64,000 bases of DNA from a virus: positions 1 to 64,000 of the IMG/VR virus record IMGVR_UViG_3300050120_000210; one strand, written 5' to 3'. The first letter of the stretch is position 1; every line of letters starts with the position of its first letter. The position numbers and the translations under genes are program-made. Of this stretch, positions 12,398 to 59,705 are shown in pieces. Below the pieces are notes generated by a model. That model searched no databases. It was given only the letters and a program-made list of their open reading frames with translations, and had not been told where the DNA came from.

Positions 12398-12724
12398 ATG
12401 GTGGCGAAAACCTACGACCCGAAAACTATGGCGCTCGCTGCCGAATATCCCTTTGAGGTGATGGTGCAATCTAGCACCGATCCTGTCGGGTCGCGGCAAG
12501 GGTTCGGCGTGAAGCTGGGAGTTTCGAGCCGTGGTTCGGGCAAAGTCAACGATAGCGGGTTCGATAATGCCGTTAGAGAAATGATGGACTGGTGTAACGA
12601 GAATTGCGTTTTCTTCTGGATGCTGGGGCCGGTTCTTCCGATCAAAGTGTTCGAGACGTGGACATACAATTTCGCCTTCGTAGACGAACAAGACGCGATG
12701 TTTTTTAAGCTGCGGTGGCAATGA
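12398..12724 (+). CDS. Accessory protein containing a copied gp21 segment
   Basis: 108 residues from the ATG at 12398 with AAGGA upstream. It ends in FAFVDEQDAMFFKLRWQ, the C-terminal signature of a small paralogous family in this phage. Residues 36-53 (about 12505-12558) are nearly identical in DNA and protein to part of the gp21 protease gene at 26342-26395, including VKLGVSSRGSG. The stop overlaps the TyrRS start (ATGA). No function is known. Confidence 0.65.
   Translation: MVAKTYDPKTMALAAEYPFEVMVQSSTDPVGSRQGFGVKLGVSSRGSGKVNDSGFDNAVREMMDWCNENCVFFWMLGPVLPIKVFETWTYNFAFVDEQDAMFFKLRWQ
12505..12558 (+). repeat. 54-bp duplication of gp21 protease gene sequence (copy 1)
   Basis: 53 of 54 bases match 26342-26395, the single difference being at 12544. 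The reading frame is the same in both copies. The second copy lies in the gp21 gene and covers its GVSSRG motif. Confidence 0.9.
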
Positions 12725-13947
12725 AATCCGAACTGATCCTTATGTTGCAAGAGCGTGGTTTCATCAACCAAGCGACTAACCTTGAGGGGTTGGATGCGCT
12801 GGCGCTTGAGCAGAAAATCACGAGCTACATCGGTTTCGATTTGACCGCCGACAGCTTGCACGTCGGCTCGCTGGTGCAGATCATGTTGCTGCGTCACATG
12901 ACAAAGCTCGGCCACGATCCCTTGATCCTCTTGGGTGAGGCGACCACGCGCATTGGCGATCCGTCCGGCAAGAGCGCGGCAAGGCCGATGCTCACCCGTG
13001 ACCAGATCGAGCACAACCGTCTGGGCATCGAAAAAGTTTTCCGCAAGTTCGTGGACAATCCGACGTTCGTTTCGAACGCCGCATGGTTCGACGATGACAC
13101 GACTCTGTTCGGTTACCTGCACGACTACGGCCCGCATTTTTCCATCAACCGGATGCTCACGTTTGATTCGGTGAAGTCGCGCCTGCGTGGGAACTCGACG
13201 CTGTCGTTCCTTGAGTTCAACTACATGCTCATGCAGGCCATCGACTTCTTCAAGCTGTCTGAAACCATGGACTGCGTGTTGCAGATCGGCGGCTCGGATC
13301 AGTGGGGCAACATCATCAACGGTGTCGAACTGGTTCGTCGAAAGAGCAGCCGTGAGGTGTTCGGGCTGACCACTCCGCTGATGACCAACTCGGCCGGGGA
13401 GAAAATGGGCAAGACCGCCGATGGCGCCATCTGGCTCGACCCGGATAAAACCTCGGCGTTTGAGTTCTGGCAGTTCTGGCGGAACGTGGAAGATGTGAAG
13501 GTCGGAGAGTTCCTTCGCCTGTTCACCGACCTCGATCTCGATGAAATCACGCGTCTGGAAATCCTCGGTGGTCAGGAACTCAACGAGGCCAAGAAAATCC
13601 TCGCGACTGAGGTGACGGCCATGGTCCACGGTAGGGCCACCGCTGCACACGTTGCGCTGCTCACCACGGGCGGTAACGTCGATCCCTGCCCGGATAGTAT
13701 GCCGATGCACATTATCCCGTCAGCGGCCTTCTCTGCGGGCATTACGCTCGCTCAAATCCTTCTCGACAGCAAGTTGGTCACGTCGAAGGGGGAAGCTGAT
13801 CGAATGGCCGCTAACGATGGTGTGAAGATCAACGGGCACATCGTCAACGACGTGCGTGAGGTTCTTCCTCGCCATGCGTTCGAGGACAACAGCTTCCTGC
13901 TCTCCGTGGGCAAGAAGAAGATGATCGCCGTGAAGATCGAGGACTGA
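12721..13947 (+). CDS. tyrS: Tyrosyl-tRNA synthetase, full length
   Basis: 408 residues, the usual bacterial length. Class I motifs are intact: the HIGH motif is HVGS near residue 47 and the KMSKS motif is KMGKT near 230, the latter typical of alphaproteobacterial TyrRS. The tyrosine-site segment YIGFDLTADSLHVGS, the SDQWGN block and a C-terminal S4-like RNA-binding domain (about 340-408) are present. It charges tRNA-Tyr in the cytoplasm. It is coupled to the upstream accessory gene by ATGA. The ATG at 12721 is preferred over a GTG six bases upstream. Confidence 0.93.
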   Translation: MKSELILMLQERGFINQATNLEGLDALALEQKITSYIGFDLTADSLHVGSLVQIMLLRHMTKLGHDPLILLGEATTRIGDPSGKSAARPMLTRDQIEHNRLGIEKVFRKFVDNPTFVSNAAWFDDDTTLFGYLHDYGPHFSINRMLTFDSVKSRLRGNSTLSFLEFNYMLMQAIDFFKLSETMDCVLQIGGSDQWGNIINGVELVRRKSSREVFGLTTPLMTNSAGEKMGKTADGAIWLDPDKTSAFEFWQFWRNVEDVKVGEFLRLFTDLDLDEITRLEILGGQELNEAKKILATEVTAMVHGRATAAHVALLTTGGNVDPCPDSMPMHIIPSAAFSAGITLAQILLDSKLVTSKGEADRMAANDGVKINGHIVNDVREVLPRHAFEDNSFLLSVGKKKMIAVKIED

Positions 13948-36851: not shown

Positions 36852-37174
36852 GGGAACGCCATCTTCAGCATGTAGAGAGCGTGTTCATCAATGATGCAGT
36901 GATGGGAAACGCAAAGAGAGAAGAAATCTTGGTCGCGCTTGTCGTTTACCCAATAAGGCAGCCTGACGCCCATACGTCGAACTTGAAAGAACAATTCCCC
37001 GTCAAATACGTCTTTGCCAACCCCAAATCGGTCGGGGATTACACTTGTGCGTCGTCCTCGGTGAGGTTTTGTCCACGCGACAGCGAGGGCCAATTTCGCA
37101 TTACGCGATTTGGATTCGTAAATCTCTGACAGTTCGCCGATGAGGAACTGTCCGTCGTTGAATACGTCAATCAT
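36848..37174 (-). CDS. Accessory protein, FExxxxALHFKLRW family (minus strand)
   Basis: 108 residues, coupled by ATGA to the DnaE-like gene upstream. The end HCIIDEHALYMLKMAFP fits the family pattern with an acid, ALxxxK and an aromatic close. It faces its two plus-strand relatives tail to tail. Function unknown. Confidence 0.6.
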   Translation of the reverse strand: MIDVFNDGQFLIGELSEIYESKSRNAKLALAVAWTKPHRGRRTSVIPDRFGVGKDVFDGELFFQVRRMGVRLPYWVNDKRDQDFFSLCVSHHCIIDEHALYMLKMAFP

Positions 37175-37698
37175 TTCAGGAAATCGTGCACGTCCAAGCC
37201 GTAACGGATTGGATCGATTTTATGGACGCCGATCAGGAAAAGCACGTAGCTCGCGACGCTTGATCCCCGACCAACTCCCCAGACGATCTTGTTCGCTCGG
37301 AAATGATCCACGAGGAACATCATCAGTTGGAGAAGCGGCACAAGGCCGCGTTCCTCGAACAAGTTCATCTCGACATTCACTCGATCACGGCAAACGTCGT
37401 CCTTGCACATTTCTTCCAAGAGGAAACGGCGAACGTCGATGCGTTGAATGTCATCCGAGATGAACCACGTCGCGGCCCGATGCGCGTGTTCTTCTTCGGG
37501 AGTGCGTTCCATAGGACCGGGCGACTGGACAAGATATTCCGTCTTGTCGAACTCGCTGCACCACCGATTATACTCGTCAACCAGCGGGCCGCCTTCGATG
37601 AGCAGTGTCGAAATGTCGATGCCTTTCAGCACCAAATCGGAGACAATGTCCGGCTGCACGACGGTGCGGCCCCAAGCGTCAACGGTCCTAGCGATCAT
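37171..37698 (-). CDS. DNA polymerase III alpha (DnaE)-like fragment
   Basis: 175 residues. The C-terminal 45 residues, FRANKIVWGVGRGSSVASYVLFLIGVHKIDPIRYGLDVHDFL in pieces, match the start of the palm of bacterial DnaE, where the GxGRGS loop binds the incoming nucleotide and IDPxxYxLxFERFL follows. The catalytic aspartates of DnaE lie further downstream and are absent, so it cannot polymerise by itself. It may be a regulatory decoy or part of a split protein. The stop is coupled to the next gene. Confidence 0.7.
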   Translation of the reverse strand: MIARTVDAWGRTVVQPDIVSDLVLKGIDISTLLIEGGPLVDEYNRWCSEFDKTEYLVQSPGPMERTPEEEHAHRAATWFISDDIQRIDVRRFLLEEMCKDDVCRDRVNVEMNLFEERGLVPLLQLMMFLVDHFRANKIVWGVGRGSSVASYVLFLIGVHKIDPIRYGLDVHDFLK

Positions 37699-40392: not shown

Positions 40393-40421
40393 TTGACCAA
40401 AGTGAGGTCTGGTTCTATTCT
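40393..40421 (+). promoter_or_regulatory. Early-type promoter
   Basis: TTGACC at 40393-40398 in CTTTTCGTTGACCAAA, a 17-bp spacer, then TATTCT (40416-40421). It drives the HNH-ligase operon. Confidence 0.7.
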
Positions 40422-40455: not shown

Positions 40456-41508
40456 ATGCAAGTTCGATCTGCCGACCGCCAAGTCCTTCTCACGAGGGAC
40501 GTATTTCGCGAAGGCGTGTTCGCCCGCGATGGCCACAAATGCGTGTTCTGCGACAAACCGGCCGTAGACGCCCATCACATCCTCGAACGACGCCTATTCG
40601 TCTCGCCCGGCGAGCAAGGCGGCTACTTCATGAACAACGGTGCGTCGGTGTGTGGCGAGCATCACATGGCCTGTGAGATGACCACCATCTCCGTAGAGGA
40701 CGTGCGAATCGCCTGCGGGATCACCAAGCCCGTGATCCCTGCCCATCTCTATTCGGACCATGTTTACGATAAATGGGGCAACGTCGTACTGCCCGATGGC
40801 CGCCGCCTGAAGGGCGAACTGTTCAACGACGCCAGCGTTCAAAAGGTGTTGGGCATGGGCGGCGTGCTCGATCTCTTCACGCATTGGGTGAAATACCCCC
40901 GGACCCATCATCTGCCTTGGTCGGAAGGTCTGACCGAAGATGACCGGATGCTCGACACGCTCGATCACTATCGCGGCAAGCGCGTGATTGTGACTGAGAA
41001 GATGGATGGTGAAAACACCACCATGTATCAGGACTACATCCACGCCCGCAGCTTGGATGGTCGAAATCATTCCTCGCGCAACTGGGTCAAGAACTATTGG
41101 GGCCAGATTTGCGGTGACATTCCCGTGGACTGGCGGCTGTGCGGCGAGAACCTCTTCGCCAAGCATTCGATCACCTACGATGCCCTGCCGACGTATTTCA
41201 TGGGTTTCTCGATGTGGAATGACCGCAACGAGTGCCTGTCGTGGGACGAAACCATCGAATGGTTCACCCTGCTCGGTGTCACGCCGGTGCCAGTGCTGTT
41301 CGACGGCATCTTCGACGAGGCAAAAATCAAGGCGTTGTTCAACGTCAAGGATTGGGAACATCGCGAGGGCTATGTCCTGCGGATCGCCGATGGGTTTACC
41401 TATGGCGAGTTCCGCACTTCGGTATCGAAGTTCGTTCGGAAAAATCATGTCCAAACTGTGAAGCATTGGATGCACGGCAAGCCTGTTGAACAGAATGGGC
41501 TAGCCTGA
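40456..41508 (+). CDS. HNH nuclease fused to RNA ligase
   Basis: 350 residues, ATG after GGAGAAGGGCG. Residues 10-80 form an HNH domain: RDGHKCVFCDKPAVDAHHIL, then NNGASVCGEHH. Residues 130-345 form a ligase of the RNA ligase nucleotidyltransferase family: motif I KMDGEN near 181, a CGENLFAKHSITY block (motif III-like) near 235, EGYVLRIADG (motif IV-like) near 302, and a KFVRK motif V-like near 320. One chain can thus cut and seal nucleic acid. It is coupled to a DEDDh exonuclease. Confidence 0.85.
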   Translation: MQVRSADRQVLLTRDVFREGVFARDGHKCVFCDKPAVDAHHILERRLFVSPGEQGGYFMNNGASVCGEHHMACEMTTISVEDVRIACGITKPVIPAHLYSDHVYDKWGNVVLPDGRRLKGELFNDASVQKVLGMGGVLDLFTHWVKYPRTHHLPWSEGLTEDDRMLDTLDHYRGKRVIVTEKMDGENTTMYQDYIHARSLDGRNHSSRNWVKNYWGQICGDIPVDWRLCGENLFAKHSITYDALPTYFMGFSMWNDRNECLSWDETIEWFTLLGVTPVPVLFDGIFDEAKIKALFNVKDWEHREGYVLRIADGFTYGEFRTSVSKFVRKNHVQTVKHWMHGKPVEQNGLA

Positions 41509-42215
41509 TGGACCTGAACGCTCTCGAACTCCGTGTGAAGAAAAAAGTCTCGGTGCTCTATCACGAGAAACACCCGGAACCGGGTGTGATCGTCGATGTC
41601 CCCGATTTCGACGCACGGATGGGTCGCCTACGGGCTTTCCAGCGGAACCTACGCGGCCATCGCGAGATCATGACGGCGCGGAAGAAGCGCGCCGATTACG
41701 TGGCCAGTCAGGTTGCCGTGCTGTGGGAACTTTCCCGCGCTCTGGCGGATGGAAAGCGTATCATGGCGTTCGACGTGGAACGCACGCTGTCGGAGATCAC
41801 GCAAGAAGTCGGCGTGACGACCTTCCGTCGTGGCGAAGGTTTTCGATCCTTCAACTTCCGAGTCGAAGGGGCGCCCAAGCGCGCCATGTCCTTTGCTTTT
41901 GGCAACTCCGATGTGATGCCGTGGGAAGAGATGAAACGCCGCCTCATGCTGGAAGGTGAACAGTCGGATTTCTATGTCGGCCATAGCATCGCGACCGACT
42001 TCGAGCATCTGAAGAGCAAGGGTCTACGCCTGCCGTTCCGGCCGATCATGGACACGTTCCATGCTTCCTGTCTCGTAGAGGAACGGGAGGGTGGCAAGCT
42101 GGGCGAACTCTGTGAATATCTTGGTGTGGACGCCAGTCGGCCGCACGGCGGTGGCAACGATGCTCGATACAATATGGAACTAGCCCTCGCCATGGTCGAT
42201 GCCTATGTCTCTTGA
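41508..42215 (+). CDS. DEDDh-type 3'-5' exonuclease-like protein
   Basis: 235 residues. The three Exo motifs are visible: MAFDVERT near 86 (D-x-E), YVGHSIATDFEHL near 154 (Asp), and HGGGNDARYN near 216 (His then Asp). The N-terminal 75 residues are basic and helical. It probably trims DNA or RNA ends. Its start overlaps the stop of the HNH-ligase fusion by one base, suggesting a joint role in end processing. Confidence 0.75.
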   Translation: MDLNALELRVKKKVSVLYHEKHPEPGVIVDVPDFDARMGRLRAFQRNLRGHREIMTARKKRADYVASQVAVLWELSRALADGKRIMAFDVERTLSEITQEVGVTTFRRGEGFRSFNFRVEGAPKRAMSFAFGNSDVMPWEEMKRRLMLEGEQSDFYVGHSIATDFEHLKSKGLRLPFRPIMDTFHASCLVEEREGGKLGELCEYLGVDASRPHGGGNDARYNMELALAMVDAYVS

Positions 42216-42465
42216 AGCGGCACAGTCTCGCTGCGACACCCTGAACATGCTGTTCAAGATGTATGAGATCAATTTGGTCTCGTCCTACAAGGACAGCGCC
42301 AGACGGCCATGGCGCCTTTCGGTCTCGAAAAACAAAACCGAGAAGCTGTTCACACTGACGACGGGCAACGGCCCGCAAATTCGGTTCTTCTGGTCGGGGA
42401 CGCAGATGGAAAACTACGCCCACCGACTCATTCGTCTCGTGCAGTCTCGTGCCGATGCTGAATGA
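42205..42465 (+). CDS. Small protein, LNxLLK domain
   Basis: 86 residues from an ATG at 42205 inside the end of the exonuclease gene (ATG at 42199 also open). LNMLFKMYEINLVSSYK is followed by strands and a C-terminal helix. A similar unit is repeated in the next gene. Basic overall. Function unknown. Confidence 0.6.
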   Translation: MSLEAAQSRCDTLNMLFKMYEINLVSSYKDSARRPWRLSVSKNKTEKLFTLTTGNGPQIRFFWSGTQMENYAHRLIRLVQSRADAE

Positions 42466-42889
42466 TCGTCGTATCCCCACCGGCGACGAGCACGAGCGTA
42501 TTCGAGCGTGCAATGAACGCCTGACTCCTTTGGGTCTCAAGGCGTTTTTCTTTTCGAAAGATGGCCCAAATGGATCACGCCGCCCGTTCCGGTTGACGCG
42601 CAATGGGCGGACGGATTCAATGCGCTACTTCACGACCATCGACGCTCTGGAAAGATATACCGACCGGGTGTTCACCGAGCAGGATCAAGTTCAAAAACTG
42701 AACGTCTTGCTGAAGATGTTCGATACCGGATACAAAACACAGATCATTTGGAAAAGTAACAAGTGCGAATATGAACTGAGTCCATCGGCTTCATATTCCG
42801 GGCGACCGAAAATGACCTTTCTATCTATTCGACAGTTGCTTGCGCGGGCTCAACGAATGATGGAAGAGCATCAAAAACTCGATGTCTGA
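42455..42889 (+). CDS. Hypothetical protein with two LNxLLK-type units
   Basis: 144 residues. Two similar units are visible: IRACNERLTPLGLKAFFFSK...YFTTIDALERYTDRVF and LNVLLKMFDTGYKTQIIWKS...FLSIRQLLARAQRMM. Each is helix, strands, helix. The 42205 product has one such unit, so the group arose by duplication. It overlaps the HNH gene by 8 bases. Confidence 0.6.
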   Translation: MLNDRRIPTGDEHERIRACNERLTPLGLKAFFFSKDGPNGSRRPFRLTRNGRTDSMRYFTTIDALERYTDRVFTEQDQVQKLNVLLKMFDTGYKTQIIWKSNKCEYELSPSASYSGRPKMTFLSIRQLLARAQRMMEEHQKLDV

Positions 42890-43181
42890 TTGTGAACTCT
42901 GCACCCGAGAACTCGTGCTCGGCCCGAGTATCGACGAACACCACCTGATTCCCAAACTGAAGGGCGGGAAACGTGGACCGACCGTGATTATCCACAAGGT
43001 CTGTCACGCGAAAATCCACTCGATTTTCACGGAATCCGAGCTTGCCCGCATCTACAACACCATCGAAAAGCTTCTAGAACACCCAGAAATAGAGAAATTC
43101 GTTAAATGGGTTTCTAAGAAGCATCCCGAGTTTTATGAGTCGAGCCGAGAGAGTAACGGCAAGCGTCGGAAGCGACGCTAA
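42882..43181 (+). CDS. HNH endonuclease
   Basis: 99 residues. The HNH signature is CELCTRELVLGPSIDEHHLIPK, then HKVCHAKIHSIF, with paired Cys for zinc. A Lys/Arg-rich tail (SNGKRRKRR) ends the protein. This compact HNH type is common in phages, with roles from packaging to host DNA cutting. Last gene of the HNH-ligase operon. Confidence 0.8.
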   Translation: MSDCELCTRELVLGPSIDEHHLIPKLKGGKRGPTVIIHKVCHAKIHSIFTESELARIYNTIEKLLEHPEIEKFVKWVSKKHPEFYESSRESNGKRRKRR

Positions 43182-44027: not shown

Positions 44028-45118
44028 CCGACCTTCTCAACGATTTCGCTGCGGCGGCCGAGAAGGAAAAGCACCTCCAATGCTATCGGGGGCTGATCCG
44101 CCGAGCGCGCCCCTATACGCTCGATGACGACGCCACTGCGTTGATTACGGAACTGGCGTCCGGCCCGACGATCAACGACAAGCTGTCGATCTATCGCATC
44201 CTCGCCCGTCTCCCGTTTGACGTGGTCTGGCTCGAACTGAACTACGATGCCCGCTACTACGCCCGCGTGGCGCTGGGCACATCGGTCGGTGAGAAGCCCA
44301 AGGATGTTCCCGACCGCATGGGCTGGCTCATGGAGCGCGTCACAGACACGGTGTGGCGAGCGACCACCATCATCCGATATGGTAAGGGCGTGACCGAGAG
44401 TGGCCGCCAAGTCGATACCTTCGGCTGCACCCATGTCATCTCGACGGAAGGCCCCCTAGAGTTCCGCTCGTTCGTCCGAGACCCTGTCCTGCGTCAAGCG
44501 GTCAAAGAGATCAACGAACCCGAACCCGACCGCGAAGCGTCCATGATCGCGGCGCTGATGTGGGGTTTCGGTGAGAGCGCGAACACGGCGGTCCATAACG
44601 GCCAAAAGATGATGCACATCGGCCTGCCGAGCCACCTCAACAAATCCAACGCCGTTGATCTGCCCGCCTCGTGGGAACCCATGATGGAGAAGGTCAGCAA
44701 GGGTGTGACAAGCGTGAAGCTCGCCCGCACCAAAGAGTTCATGATGACCTCGGCGGTTGAGCTTCAGGGCGACCTTCGTTTTCTGATGGCGGCGTTGGCT
44801 ACCCTCAACGAAGTGCCGATCACTTATGCCGATTTCAAGCCGAAGGGCTCGCGCCGCATCGGCGGCGGCATCAAGGAATATCTGGTCAACCGCATCGTGA
44901 CCATCGCCATCCCGAAGAAATATGGCCGCACCAACAAAGTCATGAAGATGCTTCGTCTGGCCGAAGTGCGGATGCGGCGCCACGAGGTGTCCGGCTACTG
45001 GAAGCGTGTGCGCTTCGGTGACGGCCGGGTCGAACGTCGGTGGATCAATGAATATATGCGCGGTGACGCCGGACTGGGTTTCGTGCGGCAAGAACGCGAA
45101 GTCGTGGAGTCCAAGTGA
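44024..45118 (+). CDS. Hypothetical phage protein with C-terminal RRHEVSGYWK motif
   Basis: 364 residues from a GTG overlapping the previous stop. The C-terminus (RMRRHEVSGYWKRVR followed by RRWINEYMRGDAGLG) is a motif I recall from uncharacterised proteins in many large phages, usually RRHxVRGHWR...RGDxxLG. The N-terminal 280 residues are mixed alpha/beta. It is coupled to the HD protein. Role unknown. Confidence 0.6.
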   Translation: MTDLLNDFAAAAEKEKHLQCYRGLIRRARPYTLDDDATALITELASGPTINDKLSIYRILARLPFDVVWLELNYDARYYARVALGTSVGEKPKDVPDRMGWLMERVTDTVWRATTIIRYGKGVTESGRQVDTFGCTHVISTEGPLEFRSFVRDPVLRQAVKEINEPEPDREASMIAALMWGFGESANTAVHNGQKMMHIGLPSHLNKSNAVDLPASWEPMMEKVSKGVTSVKLARTKEFMMTSAVELQGDLRFLMAALATLNEVPITYADFKPKGSRRIGGGIKEYLVNRIVTIAIPKKYGRTNKVMKMLRLAEVRMRRHEVSGYWKRVRFGDGRVERRWINEYMRGDAGLGFVRQEREVVESK

Positions 45119-45885
45119 TGCTCGAATCAACTTTCAACCGTGGCCTGCTGTGGACCTATTGGAAGACCGCACACGCCCAATTGGGCGTGGCCCTCGGTGA
45201 TAGAGGCCAAGACGAGTTCAATACGATCCTTGCGGCCTATAAAGCCAAGGGTCGGAAGTATCATGGCATCAAGCATCTGGTGCACGGGCTTGACATGATC
45301 CGTCAAATCCAACGGTCGCTGCTGGATTTGGGAACCAGTTTCGCGCGCATTGGTCCCAGCGTGGACATGCAACCGCAAACCGGTCTCACGTTCCGTGAGA
45401 TGGCGCTGCTGGTGCTCGCGTTTTTCTATCACGACATCATCTACGACGTGTCTCGTAAGGACAACGAAGTGATGAGCGCCAAGCGGGCGCGAGAATATCT
45501 GTCGGCGTTCCTGCGCGAGGACGAACTCCTGCGGATCGACGTTTTGATCCATGCGACGGCCGACCATCAGAACTCCGACGTGACCGACCCACTGTGGCCG
45601 CTTATGAACGACGGCGATCTCGCGATCATGGCGGCGAAGCGGCCGATCTACGAGCAGTATGGGAAGAAGGTTTGGCAGGAATATCGCGCCATCGTCAAAC
45701 GCCTGCCGTTCGTGACGGGGCGGGCGGACTTCATCAAGAAGTTCGGCTCAAAGCCCATCTTCCGCACGGAGTTCATGATGGGTCGCAAAGAAGAGATCGC
45801 GAAAGAAAATCTCTTTTGGGAATATGCTCGTCTAGTCAAAGAGGCCGACGAGTTGATGGCAGCCCACGCGAATGGCGCCCCGTAA
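45118..45885 (+). CDS. HD-domain phosphohydrolase-like protein
   Basis: 255 residues from the ATG at 45118 (TGATG overlap). It matches predicted metal-dependent HD phosphohydrolases: YHGIKHLVHGLDMIR near 42 (first His), FFYHDIIYD near 102 (HD pair), SAKRAREYL, then LIHATADHQ near 142. The substrate is probably a nucleotide or phosphoester. It ends the operon with the hairpin at 45874. Confidence 0.75.
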   Translation: MLESTFNRGLLWTYWKTAHAQLGVALGDRGQDEFNTILAAYKAKGRKYHGIKHLVHGLDMIRQIQRSLLDLGTSFARIGPSVDMQPQTGLTFREMALLVLAFFYHDIIYDVSRKDNEVMSAKRAREYLSAFLREDELLRIDVLIHATADHQNSDVTDPLWPLMNDGDLAIMAAKRPIYEQYGKKVWQEYRAIVKRLPFVTGRADFIKKFGSKPIFRTEFMMGRKEEIAKENLFWEYARLVKEADELMAAHANGAP

Positions 45886-47071: not shown

Positions 47072-47092
47072 ATGTCACTGCGGGACGCTTGA
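47072..47092 (+). CDS. Six-residue leader peptide upstream of AlaRS-like gene
   Basis: A perfect AGGAGG at 47060-47065 stands 6 bases before an ATG that encodes MSLRDA and stops at TGA (47090-47092). The stop overlaps the TTG start of the AlaRS-like frame (TTGA). Either it is a leader that couples translation, or a -1 frameshift joins it to the main protein. Confidence 0.45.
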   Translation: MSLRDA

Positions 47093-47919
47093 CGCGCCGG
47101 TTCGAAACTTTCTGCGAGACGCGAGGGATTTCGTTCCACCACGAGGATCACGTTCGATCCTATGATTCCACGACGCTGTTCTGCCCGGCGGGTATGCAGC
47201 AGTTCAAATCCCAGTTCCGAGACCCCAACTACCGGGGAACCGTCTCGAACATTCAGGGATGTCTACGCCTCAATGATCTCGATGAGATCGGCGACGGCAC
47301 CCACCTACTCCACTTCGACATGATGGGCTTGTTCTCCTTCCGCGAACTCAGCGTTCAGGATGCGGTGAACTTTTGGTTCGATTTCCTTGAAGAGATCGGC
47401 CTACGTCCAGACACGGTCACGATCCACCCAGATCGTATGGAGGAGTGGCGCGGGCTCTACGACGGCCGCAACGTCATCGTGAAGCCCGATGTGGAATGCA
47501 TCTGGTCGGACGGTGAAATCGGCGGCTATTGCACCGAGTTCTACATCGACGGTGTCGAGATCGGGAACATCGTCAACACCAACGGCGATTGCATCGACGT
47601 GGGCTTCGGCCTTGACCGTCTGTTGTTGTTCCTCGGAGATATCCCACCAGACAGGATCACCGTGCTCCAACGCGGGATCGGCCAGATTATCAAGTCGGGT
47701 TTCGTGCCGGGCAATAAGCAACAGGGCTACACCCTTCGGCGCCTGTTGCGACTTCTAGTGCGTGAGGGAGGCGATCTAGATCATCCGTTCTTCGAAGAAG
47801 AGCGGGTCCGGCAAAATCTTTTGAGAGAAAAGTTTGAGCGCCTGTCGCCCAAACATGGGGACAAACCACCAGAGTGGTGGATGGACACCCACGGTATCGA
47901 GGTATCCGACTTCAGGTAA
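47089..47919 (+). CDS. Alanyl-tRNA synthetase-like catalytic domain, stand-alone
   Basis: 276 residues against about 875 for AlaRS. The class II catalytic core of AlaRS is recognisable: LFCPAGMQQFKSQF (AlaRS TNAGMxQFK) near 31, GCLRLNDLDEIG near 59, HFDMMGLFSFRE near 76 (FEMLGNFSF), IGGYCTEFYIDG near 144, and motif 3 IDVGFGLDRLL near 169, which keeps the Asp that holds the alanine amino group. It ends just after QGYTLRRLLRLLVREGG, the start of the tRNA-recognition part. Editing and C-Ala domains are absent. The acceptor may be a tRNA or another molecule. Confidence 0.8.
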   Translation: MTRRFETFCETRGISFHHEDHVRSYDSTTLFCPAGMQQFKSQFRDPNYRGTVSNIQGCLRLNDLDEIGDGTHLLHFDMMGLFSFRELSVQDAVNFWFDFLEEIGLRPDTVTIHPDRMEEWRGLYDGRNVIVKPDVECIWSDGEIGGYCTEFYIDGVEIGNIVNTNGDCIDVGFGLDRLLLFLGDIPPDRITVLQRGIGQIIKSGFVPGNKQQGYTLRRLLRLLVREGGDLDHPFFEEERVRQNLLREKFERLSPKHGDKPPEWWMDTHGIEVSDFR

Positions 47920-53438: not shown

Positions 53439-53490
53439 GAATCTAACAGTGGGAACAAACTCACTGGCCATACACATAGAAGGATTTTCT

Positions 53491-54645
53491 ATGGCCCATA
53501 TCACCCGTGCGCGGGAACATGACATTTGCGTCTTCATTGGACGCTTTCAACCCTTGCACGCTGGACATATGGGCGTGATTCTCAAGGCGTTGGAATACGC
53601 CGAGTTCCTCTTCATTCTCATCGGCTCTGCCAACGTCGCCCGTCGTCCTGACGCCAATCCCTTTTTCGCGGCCGAACGCATCGAGATGCTGCTCGCGTCT
53701 CTGCCGCCAGAGGCGCGCGAGCGAGTGATCTTCATTCCCATGGAAGATAGTGACTACGAAACTATCGATTGGGTGAATGCGGTCAACCGCGCCGTGACGA
53801 CCGAAGCGATCAAGATCATGGGCAAGCTCGATTCGAGCATCAGCCTGATCGGCCACTCCAAAGACCACACGTCTTTCTACCTGAAGCTCTTCCCGCAGTG
53901 GAACACTATCGACGTGGTGTCTTCTCGTCCCCTCGACGCGACCATACTGCGGAATCAGTTCTTCACGGGCAACACGGCTGTCGTCGATAACATGTTCCGC
54001 TACGCCGTGGAAAACCAAGACATCCCGCTAGGCGCCATCAACTGGCTGCGAGACTTCCAAAAACTGGATGTCTATGGCGAACTCGTCGAAGAGATGGAGT
54101 TCTATCGATCCTGTCACGCCCGTTGGGATGCGGAATCGTGGCCTGCGAGCCGCAACACTGTCACCGGTGATGCTCTGATTCTGCAATCCAACCATGTCCT
54201 GCTGATCCAGCGCGGTGAGTTCCCTCAGAAGGGAACGTGGGGTATGCCCGGCGGCCACACCAATACGAACGAAACTGTTGCCGATTCTGCGCTGCGCGAA
54301 GGCTACGAAGAGACCGGCATCAAAGTGCCCAAGATCGTTTTCGAAAAGGCGTTCGTCGGCAAAGACTATTTCGATGCTCCCCGCCGCGATCCGCGTGGCC
54401 GGTATATCGGACACGTCTTCATGTATCACTTGCAACCTTCGGCGCCGTCCTACGACACCACCAAGTCGCCTGTGGAGAACCGTCGCCGGGTGAAGGACGC
54501 GTTGTCTCTGCCGAAGGTGAAGGGCATGGACGACGCCATGGGTGCCAAGTGGTGGCACCTCGACGACCTCAAGCGGTCTGAGATGTTCTTGGACCACTAT
54601 TCCATCATTCGCAAAATGACTGCCCAGTTCGGGAAGGGAAATTAA
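53491..54645 (+). CDS. nadM: Bifunctional mononucleotide adenylyltransferase-Nudix (NadM/Nudix type)
   Basis: 384 residues from the ATG at 53491 with AAGGA upstream. The N-terminal 200 residues form an NMNAT: CVFIGRFQPLHAGHMGVI near 13 (GxFxPxHxGH), LIGSANVARRPD, and DATILRNQFF near 165 (SxTxxR-like). The C-terminal Nudix domain has WGMPGGHTNTNET...LREGYEETGI near 250-273. It joins ATP to NMN or nicotinate mononucleotide; the Nudix half may degrade ADP-ribose. Phage KVP40 NatV has the same design. Confidence 0.88.
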   Translation: MAHITRAREHDICVFIGRFQPLHAGHMGVILKALEYAEFLFILIGSANVARRPDANPFFAAERIEMLLASLPPEARERVIFIPMEDSDYETIDWVNAVNRAVTTEAIKIMGKLDSSISLIGHSKDHTSFYLKLFPQWNTIDVVSSRPLDATILRNQFFTGNTAVVDNMFRYAVENQDIPLGAINWLRDFQKLDVYGELVEEMEFYRSCHARWDAESWPASRNTVTGDALILQSNHVLLIQRGEFPQKGTWGMPGGHTNTNETVADSALREGYEETGIKVPKIVFEKAFVGKDYFDAPRRDPRGRYIGHVFMYHLQPSAPSYDTTKSPVENRRRVKDALSLPKVKGMDDAMGAKWWHLDDLKRSEMFLDHYSIIRKMTAQFGKGN

Positions 54646-54646
54646 A

Positions 54647-56008
54647 ATGGACTTCGCGAAACGCGCACATGACCACAGCTTCCACATCGACCCCATCGTG
54701 CGGTCGCTGTTCGACACCGATTTCTACAAGCCGCTGATGCACCAGTTCATCTGGTCGCGCCACCCGAACACGCAGGTTACGTTCGGCGTGACCAACCGCA
54801 CGAAAGACGTGCCGCTCGCCGATATCATCGACGAGGGCGAACTGCGTGAGCAACTCGACCATGTCAAGTCGCTGACCTACACGAAATCGGAACTCATCAA
54901 CCTGAAAGGCCAGTCCTACTACGGTCAAGAGGGCATCTTCCGGCCGGGTTACATCGACTTCCTGCGGACCTTCCGCATGGGCGACTATAATCTCGAACGC
55001 GAGCGCGCGTTCAACGGCGGCGTGGGCTACGACACCGGCCAGTTCCGGTTGGAGTTCGACGACAAGTGGACGCACAGCAGCCCTTGGGAACTGCACTCGC
55101 TGACCGTCGTCAATGAACTTCGCAACCGGGCGCTCATGAAGTCGATGAGCAAGTCCGAACTGGACATCATGTATGCCCGCGCCAAGGTGAAGCTATACGC
55201 CAAGCTGAAGGCTCTGGCCGACGACCCGGCCCTCGAAGGCATCAGCGTCTCCGACTTCGGCACCCGCCGTCGCCATTCGTTCCTCTGGCAGGAATATGTC
55301 GTGCAGATGATGGCCGAAGTTCTCGGAGACCGGTTCGGCGGCACCTCGAACGTCTTCCTCGCCATGAAGCATGGTTTCGAAGCGCGGGGCACCAACGCGC
55401 ACGAACTGCCGATGGTCTACGCGGCTCTGGCCAAGAACGATGAAGAACTCGCGCAGGCGCCCTACAAGCTGTGCCACGACTGGGAGGCCGATGTTCGCGG
55501 CCCGCTGCAAATCATGCTGCCCGACACTTTCGGCACCACGGGGTTCCTGAAGAACGCCCCGCACGGCATGGCTGACTGGGCGGGTGCGCGCCCGGACTCC
55601 AAGAAAGCCAAACCCGCCATCGAAGAACTGATCGCTTACTGGGAATACCATTCCAAGGACCCGAAAACGAAGTTGGTCATCCCGAGCGATGGCCTCGACG
55701 TTCGTGTCCCCGGCTATGAGCCGCAGGGCGAAGACATCCCGACCATCTATCGCGAGTTCAAGGGCCGTGTTCGGATGTCGTTCGGTTGGGGAACGCTGGC
55801 GACCAATGACTTCGTCGGCTGCCATCCGAATCAAGCCGACTACATGAAGCCCGTCAGCCTCGTGTGCAAGGTGAAGTCGGCCGAAGGTCGCCCGGCGGTC
55901 AAGCTGTCGGACAACTACAACAAGGCCACTGGCCCCGCTGAAGAGATCGAACGCTATCGCCGCGTCTTCGGTATCGAAGGGCTGGCTGGCGTCCCGGTCA
56001 CCGTCTGA
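54647..56008 (+). CDS. pncB: Nicotinate phosphoribosyltransferase-like (PncB)
   Basis: 453 residues. PncB-type stretches occur in order: SLFDTDFYKPLMHQ near 22, VSDFGTRRRHSFLWQE near 203, GGTSNVFLAMKHGF near 230, RGTNAHELPMVYAAL near 246 (with the His that is phosphorylated in PncB), LPDTFGTTGFL near 287, VIPSDGLDVRVPGY near 345, FGWGT, and VKLSDNYNKATG near 422. It converts nicotinate plus PRPP to nicotinate mononucleotide. The RHDSGD loop is altered to RPDSKK. Nicotinamide use cannot be excluded. Confidence 0.8.
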   Translation: MDFAKRAHDHSFHIDPIVRSLFDTDFYKPLMHQFIWSRHPNTQVTFGVTNRTKDVPLADIIDEGELREQLDHVKSLTYTKSELINLKGQSYYGQEGIFRPGYIDFLRTFRMGDYNLERERAFNGGVGYDTGQFRLEFDDKWTHSSPWELHSLTVVNELRNRALMKSMSKSELDIMYARAKVKLYAKLKALADDPALEGISVSDFGTRRRHSFLWQEYVVQMMAEVLGDRFGGTSNVFLAMKHGFEARGTNAHELPMVYAALAKNDEELAQAPYKLCHDWEADVRGPLQIMLPDTFGTTGFLKNAPHGMADWAGARPDSKKAKPAIEELIAYWEYHSKDPKTKLVIPSDGLDVRVPGYEPQGEDIPTIYREFKGRVRMSFGWGTLATNDFVGCHPNQADYMKPVSLVCKVKSAEGRPAVKLSDNYNKATGPAEEIERYRRVFGIEGLAGVPVTV

Positions 56009-56018
56009 GGAAAGAAAC

Positions 56019-56264
56019 ATGCATACCAAAGTCGAACGCAAGTTCACCCTCGACGAAGCGGACATCAAAGCCATCGTGGCGGCTCATCTGAGCACGCTCG
56101 GCGATCTTTCTGTCTCGCCGGAACAAGTCATCATCCACATCAAGGACAGCACGCCGTATGGCGGGGGAGGTGATGATGGAAAGCCTGCCGTGCTCACGGT
56201 GACGGCAGTTATCGAAGAACCGCCCGGCCCGTTTCTGCTGTCAGCGCATAGGACTCGCCGGTAA
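56019..56264 (+). CDS. Hypothetical small protein in the NAD+ cluster
   Basis: 81 residues, GGAAAG upstream. Helix (TLDEADIKAIVAAHLSTLG) then strands (QVIIHIKDS and AVLTVTAVIEE) with a Gly-rich loop. No domain recognised. Lies between pncB and the promoter before pncA. Confidence 0.6.
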   Translation: MHTKVERKFTLDEADIKAIVAAHLSTLGDLSVSPEQVIIHIKDSTPYGGGGDDGKPAVLTVTAVIEEPPGPFLLSAHRTRR

Positions 56265-56275
56265 GGCGATTATCG

Positions 56276-56303
56276 TTGACCAAATCAATATTCAAGATAG
56301 CCT
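56276..56303 (+). promoter_or_regulatory. Early-type promoter within the NAD+ cluster
   Basis: TTGACC at 56276-56281 in TATCGTTGACCAAAT, a 16-bp spacer and TAGCCT at 56298-56303. Gives pncA-nadE an early promoter of their own. Confidence 0.6.
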
Positions 56304-56327
56304 CTGAATAGAGGCAGAAGGATCAAA

Positions 56328-56966
56328 ATGAACAAGATTGCAATCAAGCAAGGGACCGACATTCTGGGTTCCATCGACCAGCAGGTTGACTTTGGCGACG
56401 ACGGCAAGCTGCCGGTCGCCGGTGGCAAGGCCACGGTCGAACCCACCAATCGTGTGGGCAAGAAGTTTCGGCGCGCGTTCAAATCGCAGGATTGGCACCC
56501 GGCCGACCACGGTTCGTTCGCCAGTCAACACGGCGTGGCCCCCTTCACGATGATTAAGTTGGGTGGTCTCGATCAAGTCGCGTGGACGGATCACTGCGTG
56601 CAGGGCACCGAAGGCGCCGAGTTCCTCCCCGGCCTCGATCTGCCAAACACCGTACTGGTCGTCCGCAAGGGCATGAACCGGATGATCGACAGTTACTCGG
56701 CGTTCTTCGAGAACGATGGCACGACGCCGACCGGCCTGAACGGCGCGCTGGCCGAACTCGGAATCAAGCGCATCTTCCTGACTGGTTTGGCCCGCAACTT
56801 CTGCGTTGCCTTCACGGCGCTGGATGCCATTCGGCTTGGTTACGAAGTCTTCATCTTCGAAGACGCCGTCGCCTCGATCCAAGATGGCTCGGACGAGGCT
56901 ATGACCGAAAAACTACTCGCCGCTGGCGTGAAGCTCATCACCACGGCCGACATCGAGGGGATTTGA
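56328..56966 (+). CDS. pncA: Nicotinamidase (PncA-like)
   Basis: 212 residues. The isochorismatase-fold catalytic triad is complete: Asp 17 in SIDQQVDF, Lys near 114 in VVRKGMN, Cys near 159 in ARNFCVAFTALDA. The metal site DWHPADHGSF (Asp 55, His 57, His 61) is also intact. It hydrolyses nicotinamide to nicotinate, the first step of the deamidating NAD+ salvage route. AAGG upstream. The next gene starts 1 base after the stop. Confidence 0.9.
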   Translation: MNKIAIKQGTDILGSIDQQVDFGDDGKLPVAGGKATVEPTNRVGKKFRRAFKSQDWHPADHGSFASQHGVAPFTMIKLGGLDQVAWTDHCVQGTEGAEFLPGLDLPNTVLVVRKGMNRMIDSYSAFFENDGTTPTGLNGALAELGIKRIFLTGLARNFCVAFTALDAIRLGYEVFIFEDAVASIQDGSDEAMTEKLLAAGVKLITTADIEGI

Positions 56967-56967
56967 G

Positions 56968-57618
56968 ATGACCGAATCGTTCGAAAGCAAATTCACCAAA
57001 ATCGGTGACGTGACGCTTCCCTACTATGCGGGAACCCGCGTCATGATGCTCCCGGTCATCATCGGCAACGAGGCCAGCATTCCCGATCTGCTGGCCGGTG
57101 AATGGAAGGCGACCTTCCATGAACTGTCCGAACTCGCCAATCCCGCCCACAAGGGCAAGGTTGGTTACCTGACCATCGACGAGAAAATTGTTCAACCTGC
57201 CAAGACCCATCGCCGCGAAGGCAAACACGTCGATGGCGTGTTCCAAGGCAGCACCGGTAGCTGGGGCGGCGGTGGAGGATGGGGCTCCGTGGGCAACGGT
57301 ATGATTACCGTCGCCTCGCACCCCGGTTGTCGTGCGTGGAACCAAACCTTCATCGGTCGCACCGGATACGAAGGCGAATGCGATCACCTCGCCGACCAGT
57401 GCGAAGGTGAAGGCACGCTGTTTGGCGCCGGTGAAGTGTTCTGGGTGGATGGATTGTGCGTCCATGAGTCGGTGGCCATGACGCGGCCGACTCCGCGCCA
57501 GTTCGTGCGACTCTCGCTGCCGTCGAATGCGGCGTGGTTCGAGGGCTACACAGAAAATCCGCTGGGCGTGCTTCCCACCGGCCCGATCCTCCCGCGCCGT
57601 TCGTTCATGGACGCCTGA
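56968..57618 (+). CDS. Unknown protein embedded in the NAD+ operon
   Basis: 216 residues. An alpha/beta N-terminal half is followed by a Gly-rich stretch (GSTGSWGGGGGWGSVGNG) and a region with conserved-looking His and Asp: GEVFWVDGLCVHESVAM near 156, then PTPRQFVRLSLPS and YTENPLGVLPTGPILPRRS. The C-terminal part has the feel of a cupin or 2-oxoglutarate oxygenase sheet, but I cannot assign it. Its place between pncA and nadE suggests a role in pyridine nucleotide metabolism. Confidence 0.6.
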   Translation: MTESFESKFTKIGDVTLPYYAGTRVMMLPVIIGNEASIPDLLAGEWKATFHELSELANPAHKGKVGYLTIDEKIVQPAKTHRREGKHVDGVFQGSTGSWGGGGGWGSVGNGMITVASHPGCRAWNQTFIGRTGYEGECDHLADQCEGEGTLFGAGEVFWVDGLCVHESVAMTRPTPRQFVRLSLPSNAAWFEGYTENPLGVLPTGPILPRRSFMDA

Positions 57619-57620
57619 AT

Positions 57621-57932
57621 ATGACGGCTCCCGCACTTCATTCCTTTGAATATGCGCTGGTGGTGGTGTCTCAACGCCTGCTGCCGTCCGCATATCCGAC
57701 TGAAGTTGCGCGGGAGCTTTCCACCGTGCTCAACCGAGAAGTCAGCATCCCGCAAGTCGTGCTCTCGCTGAACCGGCTTGAGGAAAATGGCTTCGTGGTC
57801 ACCACGATCAGCGAAGCCCGGCCCGTTCGCGGTGGCCGTAAGCGGCGGATGATCTATGTCACGAAGTCCGGCGCGGATGCTGCGGTTCAGACGCGTGATT
57901 TCTACAATAACCTTCAGTTCGAGAAGGACTAA
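57621..57932 (+). CDS. Winged-helix regulator, PadR-like
   Basis: 103 residues from the ATG at 57621. The winged-helix pattern matches PadR: YPTEVARELSTVLNREVSIPQVVLSLNRLEENGFV then GGRKRRMIYVTKSGADA. It probably binds DNA as a dimer. It could control the NAD+ operon or a host gene. Confidence 0.7.
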   Translation: MTAPALHSFEYALVVVSQRLLPSAYPTEVARELSTVLNREVSIPQVVLSLNRLEENGFVVTTISEARPVRGGRKRRMIYVTKSGADAAVQTRDFYNNLQFEKD

Positions 57933-57935
57933 AAA

Positions 57936-59705
57936 ATGAAGATCAAGATCGCCGTCGTGCAATTCAATCCCAAGGTGGGAGCACTGGAAGACAACGCCGC
58001 CCGGATGCTCGGACTGTATTCGGCCGCCGCCGTGTCCGGCGCCGATCTCGTCGTGTTCCCCGAATGCGCGCTCACTGGCTATCCGCTGGAAGACCTCGTG
58101 TTGCGTCACAGCTTCATGGACGCCGTGGTCGTGGAATCGAAGGCGTTCATCGACGCGGTTTATGCCACCGGCCTGAAAGCATCCGTGATCTTTGGTACGC
58201 CCATCCACGGTGTGGCCATCAACGGCGATGATCGGTCGGGCAATGGCGCCATCCTGTTTGATCCCACCACGGGCAAATGGGAATCGGTTCTCAAATACGA
58301 ACTGCCGAATTACGGCGTGTTCGACGAGAAGCGCATTTTCCAACGCGGCGAAGACCCGATCCATACCATTGAATGGCGTGGCAAGAAAATCGGCCTGATG
58401 ATCTGCGAAGACGCGTGGTTCTCGACCGTCACGAATCGGCTCTACACGGATGACGCCGTCTTCCTCATCTCGATCAACGGTTCGCCGTTCGAGTCCGGCA
58501 AGAACGTCATCCGCCACAACGTCGTCAAGGAACGGATGAACGAAACCGGCCTGCCGTTCCTCTACGTGAACATGGTCGGTGGACAAGACGAACTGGTGTT
58601 CGACGGTGGGTCTTTCCTCTACGACAGCAACGGTCTGCAAGAGGCTCCCTACTTCGAAGATGGTCTCTTCTTTTTCGACACAGAAATCACCGAAGAGAAA
58701 CGATCCCAGTCGATGTCGTGGGGTGATCCGCCACCTCCGGCAATCATGACCTTCACCGACTTCCCAACCATCGTTCCCACCGGCATCGGCGCGATCTACC
58801 AAGCCTGCGTGCTCGGTCTGCGGGACTACGTGACCAAGCAGGGTTTCAAGAGCGTCTTGCTGGGATATTCCGGCGGGGTGGACTCCGGTATCGTCGCCGC
58901 CATGGCCTGCGATGCTCTGGGTCACGAGAACGTTCTGTTGGTCCGTCTACCCTCCAATTTCTCATCGGACGGTTCGCTCACCGACGCCGCTGATGGGGCC
59001 AAGCGGCTCGGTGCGGCGATGCGGACGATCTACATCGAAGGGATCGTCAACGAACTGCGGCGGTCCTACACCACGGCGACATACGGTCATGACGAAAACG
59101 CGCCGGGTGCTTCACAGTTGGACAAGCACCTCGAAGGTGTGGCCGACGAGAACATCCAAGCTCGCGCTCGCGGGACCGTCCTGATGGCCATCAGCAATCA
59201 GGAAGGCCATATGCTCTTGACCACCGGCAACAAGTCGGAAGTCAGCGTGGGCTATTCGACGCTCTACGGCGACATGTCGGGCGGCTTCAATCCGATCAAG
59301 GATTGCTACAAGGTCACGGTCTGGGACCTCTGCCGCTGGCGGAACGCCTTGACCGCTCAGCAAATCCGCGACTTCGGGTTCATGGGCGCGGCGACGGAGG
59401 TTGTGCCGGAAGCAATCATCGTCAAGCCGCCGTCCGCCGAACTTCGGCCGGACCAACAAGACAGTGACAGCCTTCCCGCCTATCCGATTCTCGACGCGAT
59501 GCTGAAGGCGATGATCGAAGACGAACTTAGCGTCAACGAGATCGTTGACAAGCTGGGTCTTGATATCGACTTGGTCAAACGCATCCGGCGACTGGTGGAC
59601 AACGCAGAATACAAGCGCCGTCAAGCGGCGCCGGGCGTGAAGATCACCAGCAAGATTCACGGCCGGGATCGTCGCTACCCCATCGTCAACGCGTGGAGGA
59701 ACTGA
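57936..59705 (+). CDS. nadE: Glutamine-dependent NAD+ synthetase (NadE)
   Basis: 589 residues, full length. The N-terminal nitrilase-type glutaminase has Glu 43 in FPECALTGY, a Lys in LKYELPNYGVFDE near 116 and Cys in LMICEDAWF near 157. The C-terminal synthetase has the P-loop LLGYSGGVDSGIVAAM near 308-323 and TTGNKSEVSVGYSTLYGDMSGG near 430-451. It amidates nicotinate adenine dinucleotide to NAD+ using ATP and glutamine. Confidence 0.93.
   Translation: MKIKIAVVQFNPKVGALEDNAARMLGLYSAAAVSGADLVVFPECALTGYPLEDLVLRHSFMDAVVVESKAFIDAVYATGLKASVIFGTPIHGVAINGDDRSGNGAILFDPTTGKWESVLKYELPNYGVFDEKRIFQRGEDPIHTIEWRGKKIGLMICEDAWFSTVTNRLYTDDAVFLISINGSPFESGKNVIRHNVVKERMNETGLPFLYVNMVGGQDELVFDGGSFLYDSNGLQEAPYFEDGLFFFDTEITEEKRSQSMSWGDPPPPAIMTFTDFPTIVPTGIGAIYQACVLGLRDYVTKQGFKSVLLGYSGGVDSGIVAAMACDALGHENVLLVRLPSNFSSDGSLTDAADGAKRLGAAMRTIYIEGIVNELRRSYTTATYGHDENAPGASQLDKHLEGVADENIQARARGTVLMAISNQEGHMLLTTGNKSEVSVGYSTLYGDMSGGFNPIKDCYKVTVWDLCRWRNALTAQQIRDFGFMGAATEVVPEAIIVKPPSAELRPDQQDSDSLPAYPILDAMLKAMIEDELSVNEIVDKLGLDIDLVKRIRRLVDNAEYKRRQAAPGVKITSKIHGRDRRYPIVNAWRN

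Follow-up and report, generated by a model that had tools for sequence, protein, structure and literature searches.

An HNH-ligase fusion of the DRB0100/LigB group in a virus genome as a candidate single-chain break-processing and sealing ligase

Introduction

Fusions of an HNH domain with an Rnl2-type ligase were reported in jumbo phages by Iyer et al. 2021, with a guess at their function, in passages of that paper (PMC7824862). Excerpts of a study of the HGTV-1 class count two Rnl2 ligases in HGTV-1 (PMC8651126), and gene 233 of this virus is already annotated as an RNA ligase with an HNH domain. Here we describe such a fusion gene in a 64,000-base stretch of DNA from a large virus of bacteria (the window), which is bases 1-64000 of the 149,124-base IMG/VR record IMGVR_UViG_3300050120_000210. 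Its product has the same domain order as the jumbo-phage HNH-Rnl2 fusions (phrog_24030, HGTV-1 gene 233). The HNH-Rnl2 architecture is already described, and the window protein is a new member.

The ligase half of the window protein is related to DRB0100 (LigB, DdrP), a radiation-induced enzyme encoded on megaplasmid MP1 of Deinococcus radiodurans. Behind the DRB0100 gene lie a macro/PARG gene, DRB0099 (TIGR02452), and then DRB0098, which encodes an HD domain and an AAA_33 kinase; genes of this HD + AAA_33 kinase type are called HD-Pnk. The sections of PMC1997131 on these proteins report that DRB0100 adenylates itself at Lys40, that no ligation of DNA, RNA or hybrids by DRB0100 was detected, and that it did not ligate DNA with its operon partners. 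Lys40 corresponds to the nucleotidyl Lys of the fusion. Two further papers, in passages that cite the work of others, state that DRB0100 ligates only with DRB0098 and PprA (PMC5128194) and that it is active with PprA (PMC3893189). The label 'RNA ligase' for the DRB0100/LigB group is derived from its fold.

Domain layout and conservation of the fusion

The fusion gene lies at 40456-41508 on the plus strand and encodes 350 amino acids (aa); this open reading frame (ORF) was also selected by a simple codon-usage scan. Pfam PF09414 (RNA_ligase) matches residues 176-325 over its cut-off (E 2.7e-29), and a PF09414 search of the whole virus record gave this type of match once. The PHROGs family phrog_24030, named 'RNA ligase', matches at full length (residues 11-346 against positions 3-338 of 342, E 3.3e-138), and several PHROG HNH families match the N-terminal 95 aa taken alone (best 1.9e-5). 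An AlphaFold2 model built from 45 homologues has a mean predicted local distance difference test score (pLDDT) of 91 and a predicted template-modelling score (pTM) of 0.83. These data bear out the original prediction, which had been made from the DNA letters and had proposed a 350-residue protein with an HNH domain and a nucleotidyltransferase carrying KMDGEN and the later ligase motifs. A search of solved structures with the single fusion sequence returned antibody chains only, which were judged to be chance matches.

The protein can be divided into an HNH (His-Me finger) domain at residues 12-76 (40489-40683), a conserved middle at residues 77-143 (40684-40884; mostly pLDDT >89) and an Rnl2-type adenylyltransferase at residues 144-348 (40885-41499), in which the codon of Lys182 is 40999-41001.

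Conservation was analyzed in the best 80 of 162 IMG/VR relatives found by a profile scan, a set that leans to close relatives. Four loci with broken frames (L020, L052, L060, L074), L082 with its 2,834-aa frame, and 8 near-identical loci were dropped, and the window and seven named phages were added. This gave 75 proteins, 50 fused and 25 without HNH; L055 is cut by the contig end and was counted as ligase-only, so that the true viral ligase-only number is 24. The fusion is found in other phages, Caulobacter jumbo phages and HGTV-1 included. A tblastn search in phages gave 32 records, 16 of them covering >=80% of the fusion query: Caulobacter jumbo phages carry homologues at 62-64%, and Salicola phage SCTP-2, Acinetobacter phage ME3 and the archaeal virus HGTV-1 are among the matches covering >=80%. 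The ligase half alone was matched in Xanthomonas XacN1, Agrobacterium Atu_ph07 and Sinorhizobium Phosso. Bases 20000-44900 of the window, searched in a phage collection, gave no match.

C29, C32, H40, H41, C66 and H70 of the HNH domain are invariant in the 50 fused proteins, and N61 is present in 49 of them; the roles assigned to the HH, N, H and Cys residues are those generally known from HNH enzymes. Furthermore, K106 and W107 in the middle are present in 50/50 and G108 in 47/50. Extending the comparison to 68 fused proteins (49 viral, including the window's, and 19 cellular; L055, L079 and L106 left out) gave two exceptions only: L017, which departs at N61, and L108, which departs at H40, H70 and K106. 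Thus, as to the degeneracy of HNH residues on which the original prediction was made to depend, the HNH is kept in almost all homologues and is degenerate in a few members on Pseudomonas plasmids. The near-invariant K-W-G middle (40684-40884) occurs solely in the fused form and is missing from ligase-only relatives. In L106 (5757-7271), one full fused gene is preceded by additional copies of the beginning of its HNH domain, an apparent local duplication.

Residues 1-143 modelled alone reached pLDDT 94, and their nearest folds were the HNH domains of IscB, Cap5 and McrA-type proteins (Z 5.3-6.3). The best was IscB (Z 6.3, root-mean-square deviation (rmsd) 2.7 over 72 residues), and no Foldseek match was obtained at E 0.001 or better. 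Because these fold matches are weak, the HNH assignment is based mainly on the residues and the PHROG matches. IscB, Cap5 and McrA carry domains that read guide RNA, cyclic nucleotides and modified bases, respectively. The window protein resembles their HNH domains in fold and profile weakly, and unlike them shows no such reading domain.

In pairs of close homologues, the ratio of nonsynonymous to synonymous substitution rates (dN/dS) was 0.03-0.14 in the HNH part where computable, and low in both halves. Both halves are under purifying selection. Since the fusion is conserved over distant viruses and dN/dS is low in both halves, it is not a chance joining.

The ligase half and the DRB0100 group

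KMDGEN corresponds to residues 182-187, and K182, D184 and G185 are present in all 75 proteins, fused or ligase-only; the later ligase positions E231, E304-G305, K325 and V327 are also conserved. In the model, residues 142-334 form an adenylyltransferase whose nearest structure is T4 Rnl2 (2hvr_A; Z 14.9, rmsd 3.0, 174 residues). The fold also resembles archaeal Rnl, Naegleria Rnl and REL1, with Z 13.3-14.9 over T4 Rnl2, REL1 and Naegleria Rnl. Around the shared core, T4 Rnl2 has a C-terminal domain, which holds the substrate for the ligase, and Naegleria Rnl has an N-terminal domain; the window protein has neither. T4 Rnl2 was aligned only up to its residue ~234, and the fusion chain ends at residue 350. 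Because the C-terminal domain is missing, we do not class the protein with the T4-Rnl2-like enzymes narrowly defined. REL1-type members likewise lack this domain.

DRB0100 (210 residues), which is among the ligase-only proteins, aligns to window residues 145-349 with 50% identity over 205 aa (E 9e-69). Both consist, in the ligase part, of the adenylation domain only. DRB0100 differs from the window protein in having neither HNH nor middle, and its operon with the PARG macro gene and HD-Pnk is absent beside the window gene. Judged from sequence, the ligase half is a member of the DRB0100/LigB group, not of the DRB0100 operon type.

Two relatives lie in very long open frames. In L082 (2221-10722), the ligase domain of the fusion family is within the 2,834-aa frame, and in record G036 a PF09414 match is within a 14,712-aa frame.

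Fused and ligase-only forms in cells and their relation to HD-Pnk

The fusion is also found in bacteria. The cellular set is the best 80 of 477 relatives in bacterial and archaeal genomes and leans to close relatives and to Paenibacillus; it contains 20 fused and 60 ligase-only loci. An even draw of 398 genomes from one phylum, with the centre genome set apart, contained 0 fused genes, 1 close ligase-only gene and 15 remote ligases, which makes the fusion a sporadic feature of cells. Loci L093 and L094 have it as a single gene among unrelated chromosomal genes, those of L094 looking flagellar, and it therefore seems to need no fixed neighbour. The fusion is also carried on megaplasmids of Variovorax, Erythrobacter, Pseudomonas, Bosea, Rhizobium and Miltoncostaea. 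A tree of 120 ligase domains, into which 28 of the 60 cellular ligase-only loci entered (31 were submitted), requires 12 or more switches between the fused and the unfused form. The tree is poorly resolved, with 17 of 117 inner branches starred, and we do not claim a single origin of the fusion from it.

The ligase-only form is associated with HD-Pnk. HD-Pnk was found in 53 of the 60 cellular ligase-only loci, always on the same strand as the ligase, and the reversed order Pnk-HD in 5 further loci, which makes 58/60; the two loci with neither are L119, a 3.4 kb contig, and L127. HD-Pnk also adjoins the one close ligase-only gene of the phylum draw and five of its remote ligases. By contrast with these, HD-Pnk or Pnk-HD was found in 0 of the 20 cellular fused loci, a count weakened by the shortness of L101, L105 and L110 (3.1, 3.0 and 6.2 kb). 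A whole-genome search in 17 of the 20 genomes carrying the fused form revealed full-length HD-Pnk only together with L108, whose HNH is dead. No tblastn match to DRB0099-like macro-domain genes was found in the loci.

On plasmids, 12 records cover >=80% of the query, of which 11 (H84-H94) are listed; the state of the HNH was read in nine of these, that is, all except H92 and H94. Of the 11 listed plasmids, 8 also carry HD-Pnk, compared with 40 matching records among 72,556. This suggests a shared pathway, with the large size of these plasmids as an uncontrolled factor. In Variovorax RA8 and Erythrobacter, the HNH is intact and no HD-Pnk was found on the plasmid among the matches listed. A strict exclusion between HNH and HD-Pnk held in the 17 searched cellular genomes and failed on plasmids, and was rejected. 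Thus, HNH and HD-Pnk are alternatives at the locus but not across the genome as a whole. In PLSDB, Pseudomonas aeruginosa plasmids NZ_OX638702.1 and NZ_CP115230.1 carry an HD-Pnk ~61% identical to that of L177.

Searches of 87 viral loci and of 43 virus records revealed no full-length HD-Pnk; 12 of the records had partial matches. In one virus locus, L059, the fused gene is directly followed by a kinase.

Genes around the fusion and elsewhere in the record

No HD-Pnk adjoins the fusion in the window. The next gene, at 41508-42215 on the plus strand, overlaps the fusion gene by one base and encodes a 235-aa DEDDh-type exonuclease (PF21762 DEDDh_C, 5.2e-11), as had been predicted. A separate HNH protein had been predicted to follow; an HNH-like protein of 99 aa is indeed encoded at 42882-43181 on the plus strand, after two small ORFs (42199-42465 and 42449-42889) and outside the interval first considered. 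It matches Pfam HNH (0.0016) and the NCBIfam family HlpB (NF058586, 1.8e-21), both below the cut-offs. In searches of the ORFs round the viral and cellular loci, a DEDDh homologue was found near the fusion only in L017, ~1 kb downstream of the ligase, and profile searches round the loci gave a close homologue of the 99-aa HNH protein likewise only in L017, ~1 kb downstream. We therefore rejected the proposal that the exonuclease and the second HNH protein are parts of the system. An HD protein at 45115-45885 was considered as half of an HD-Pnk and rejected, because it has the HD domain only and is found only in L017. Directly upstream of the fusion in L017 (4841-6001) is a 386-aa protein with two similar HNH-like halves by eye and no convincing Pfam match.

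Upstream of the fusion gene, a possible sigma-70-type promoter (40393-40421, plus strand) has 9/12 matches, a count no higher than in shuffles, and no promoter or terminator pattern round the gene was above chance. DNA repeats round it were just short imperfect pairs.

Among 33 virus records with the fusion, the window's included, an AAA_33 kinase is present in 21, another RNA ligase in 26 and either in 29. Viral neighbours identified by Pfam comprise Rnl1, OB-fold Rnl, Thg1, Pnkp, cREC and NADAR, some of them near ligase-only loci. Jumbo phages are rich in RNA-repair-type genes generally, as passages of PMC7824862 state, and because of this we regard these genes as supporting context only. 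The window's own record encodes an AAA_33 polynucleotide-kinase-like protein at G000:C1:138210-138644 (minus strand), ~97 kb from the fusion. No RtcB was found in this record. The window contains no transfer RNA (tRNA) gene; three are located elsewhere in the record, at 105-126 kb.

Other genes of the window were also observed. A nicotinamide adenine dinucleotide (NAD+) salvage cluster at 53449-59705, which may be a counter-defence module, encodes a protein of the cytidyltransferase/nicotinamide mononucleotide adenylyltransferase-Nudix type (53449-54645), nicotinamide phosphoribosyltransferase (54647-56008) and NAD synthetase (57936-59705). A tyrosyl-tRNA synthetase is encoded at 12715-13947, and a 276-aa class II (Ala-type) tRNA synthetase-like protein at 47089-47919. 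A 175-aa ORF on the minus strand (37171-37698) carries only part of the DNA polymerase III alpha domain and perhaps belongs to a split polymerase; its counterparts have the same length in L017 and 307 aa in L016.

Proposed function and rival readings

Our best reading, to which we give a probability of roughly 40%, is that the fusion is a self-contained, single-chain break-processing and sealing ligase of the LigB/DRB0100 group, with RNA or DNA as its substrate. The domains, conservation, group and neighbours come from data; that the HNH is active, how the steps follow one another and which substrate is used are inferred. HNH nucleases normally leave 5'-phosphate and 3'-OH ends. The HNH and the middle would bind a broken or nicked substrate and, where the active site is intact, would cut it to such ends. 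In the C-terminal domain, Lys182 would take adenosine monophosphate (AMP) from adenosine triphosphate, hand the AMP to the 5'-phosphate and seal this end to the 3'-OH; a damaged or blocked stretch could thereby be excised and the gap closed. The ligase half is a bare adenylyltransferase without the substrate-holding extra domains of other ligases. Cellular relatives of the same size as this bare ligase have an HD-Pnk encoded alongside, and in the fused form the HNH and the K-W-G middle may stand in for such a partner at the gene level. Ends left by RNA-cleaving toxins would require a kinase/phosphatase in addition, and many carriers encode one elsewhere. The original prediction that one chain can cut and seal is consistent with the conservation of both active sites and with the predicted structures, and its proposal of a repair role agrees indirectly with the ties of the ligase group to end-healing enzymes. 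A narrower form, in which the HNH-ligase is the self-contained DRB0100 form, with an HNH that provides the substrate holding and the cutting missing from DRB0100, excises and seals RNA or RNA:DNA breaks and has lost cutting in a lineage that relies on HD-Pnk, is tentative, with odds clearly against it.

Several observations weigh against the best reading. The substrate that the HNH cuts may differ from the one that the ligase seals. Four members on Pseudomonas plasmids (L108, L176, L177 and L181) retain an intact ligase although HNH residues are gone, so cutting is not always needed; the plasmids of L176, L177 and L181 carry HD-Pnk. Among 29 fused cellular and plasmid loci, HD-Pnk is found only in L177, where it overlaps the fused gene by 4 bases. 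An intact HNH and an HD-Pnk far from the ligase are on one plasmid in L178 (whose annotated start omits the first part of the protein), L179, L180 and L182. That HNH replaces HD-Pnk therefore holds only as a tendency, and the independent pairs available to a phylogenetic sign test were too few for a decision. The clustering of repair genes near the viral fusion is weak (p 0.13 at 6 kb, 0.005 at 12 kb and 0.13 at 25 kb). In addition, a DRB0100 knockout is fully radiation resistant, according to part of PMC1978522.

The least unlikely rival is that the HNH and the middle mainly hold a nicked or broken substrate for the ligase, with cutting secondary or lost. This would suit a ligase half that corresponds to the adenylyltransferase core of T4 Rnl2 only, a K-W-G middle conserved as strongly as the active sites, and HNH-dead members that retain both the HNH domain and the ligase. 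However, the catalytic residues are kept in the 68 fused proteins save L108 and L017, and docking alone would not conserve them. It is unlikely that the two domains do separate jobs, the HNH attacking the DNA of superinfecting phages or of the host and the ligase repairing RNA, as proposed by Iyer et al. 2021 in passages of PMC7824862. The nearest HNH folds, the DNA-cutting domains of IscB, Cap5 and McrA, are in line with this proposal, but the domains are joined by a conserved and confidently modelled middle, no PADLOC defence model matches the fusion, and no partner indicative of immunity or modification is seen with the solitary chromosomal copies.

Plain tRNA repair against anticodon nucleases, in which the ligase seals cut tRNAs and the HNH is incidental, we hold to be improbable. 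It is the usual reading of phage Rnl enzymes in passages of PMC7824862, and RNA ligases, Thg1, cREC and Pnkp occur near or with the family in viruses. Against it, the single studied relative sealed no RNA in the experiments of PMC1997131 referred to above, the HNH is conserved, and the tRNA genes of the record lie outside the window. Capture of a homing or other mobile HNH by a ligase gene is very improbable, the conserved junction having already refuted it for the most part. Mobile HNH genes are common, and architecture changes at least 12 times on the best tree. That tree is poorly resolved, though, and the same junction, a shared middle and low dN/dS are seen throughout; we found no support for the handling of introns or mobile DNA that had also been suggested for this locus.

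Implications for the DRB0100 group

In the literature searched, no paper was found that states the link of HNH-Rnl fusions to DRB0100 and HD-Pnk, the residue counts or the HNH-dead members. These are new here. The fusion may also give a single-chain cut-and-join tool. For the ligase group best known from DRB0100, it is a naturally joined enzyme that can be produced as a single protein and probed by mutating each active site on its own. Should it seal breaks that DRB0100 leaves unsealed, this would answer what the DRB0100 group does.

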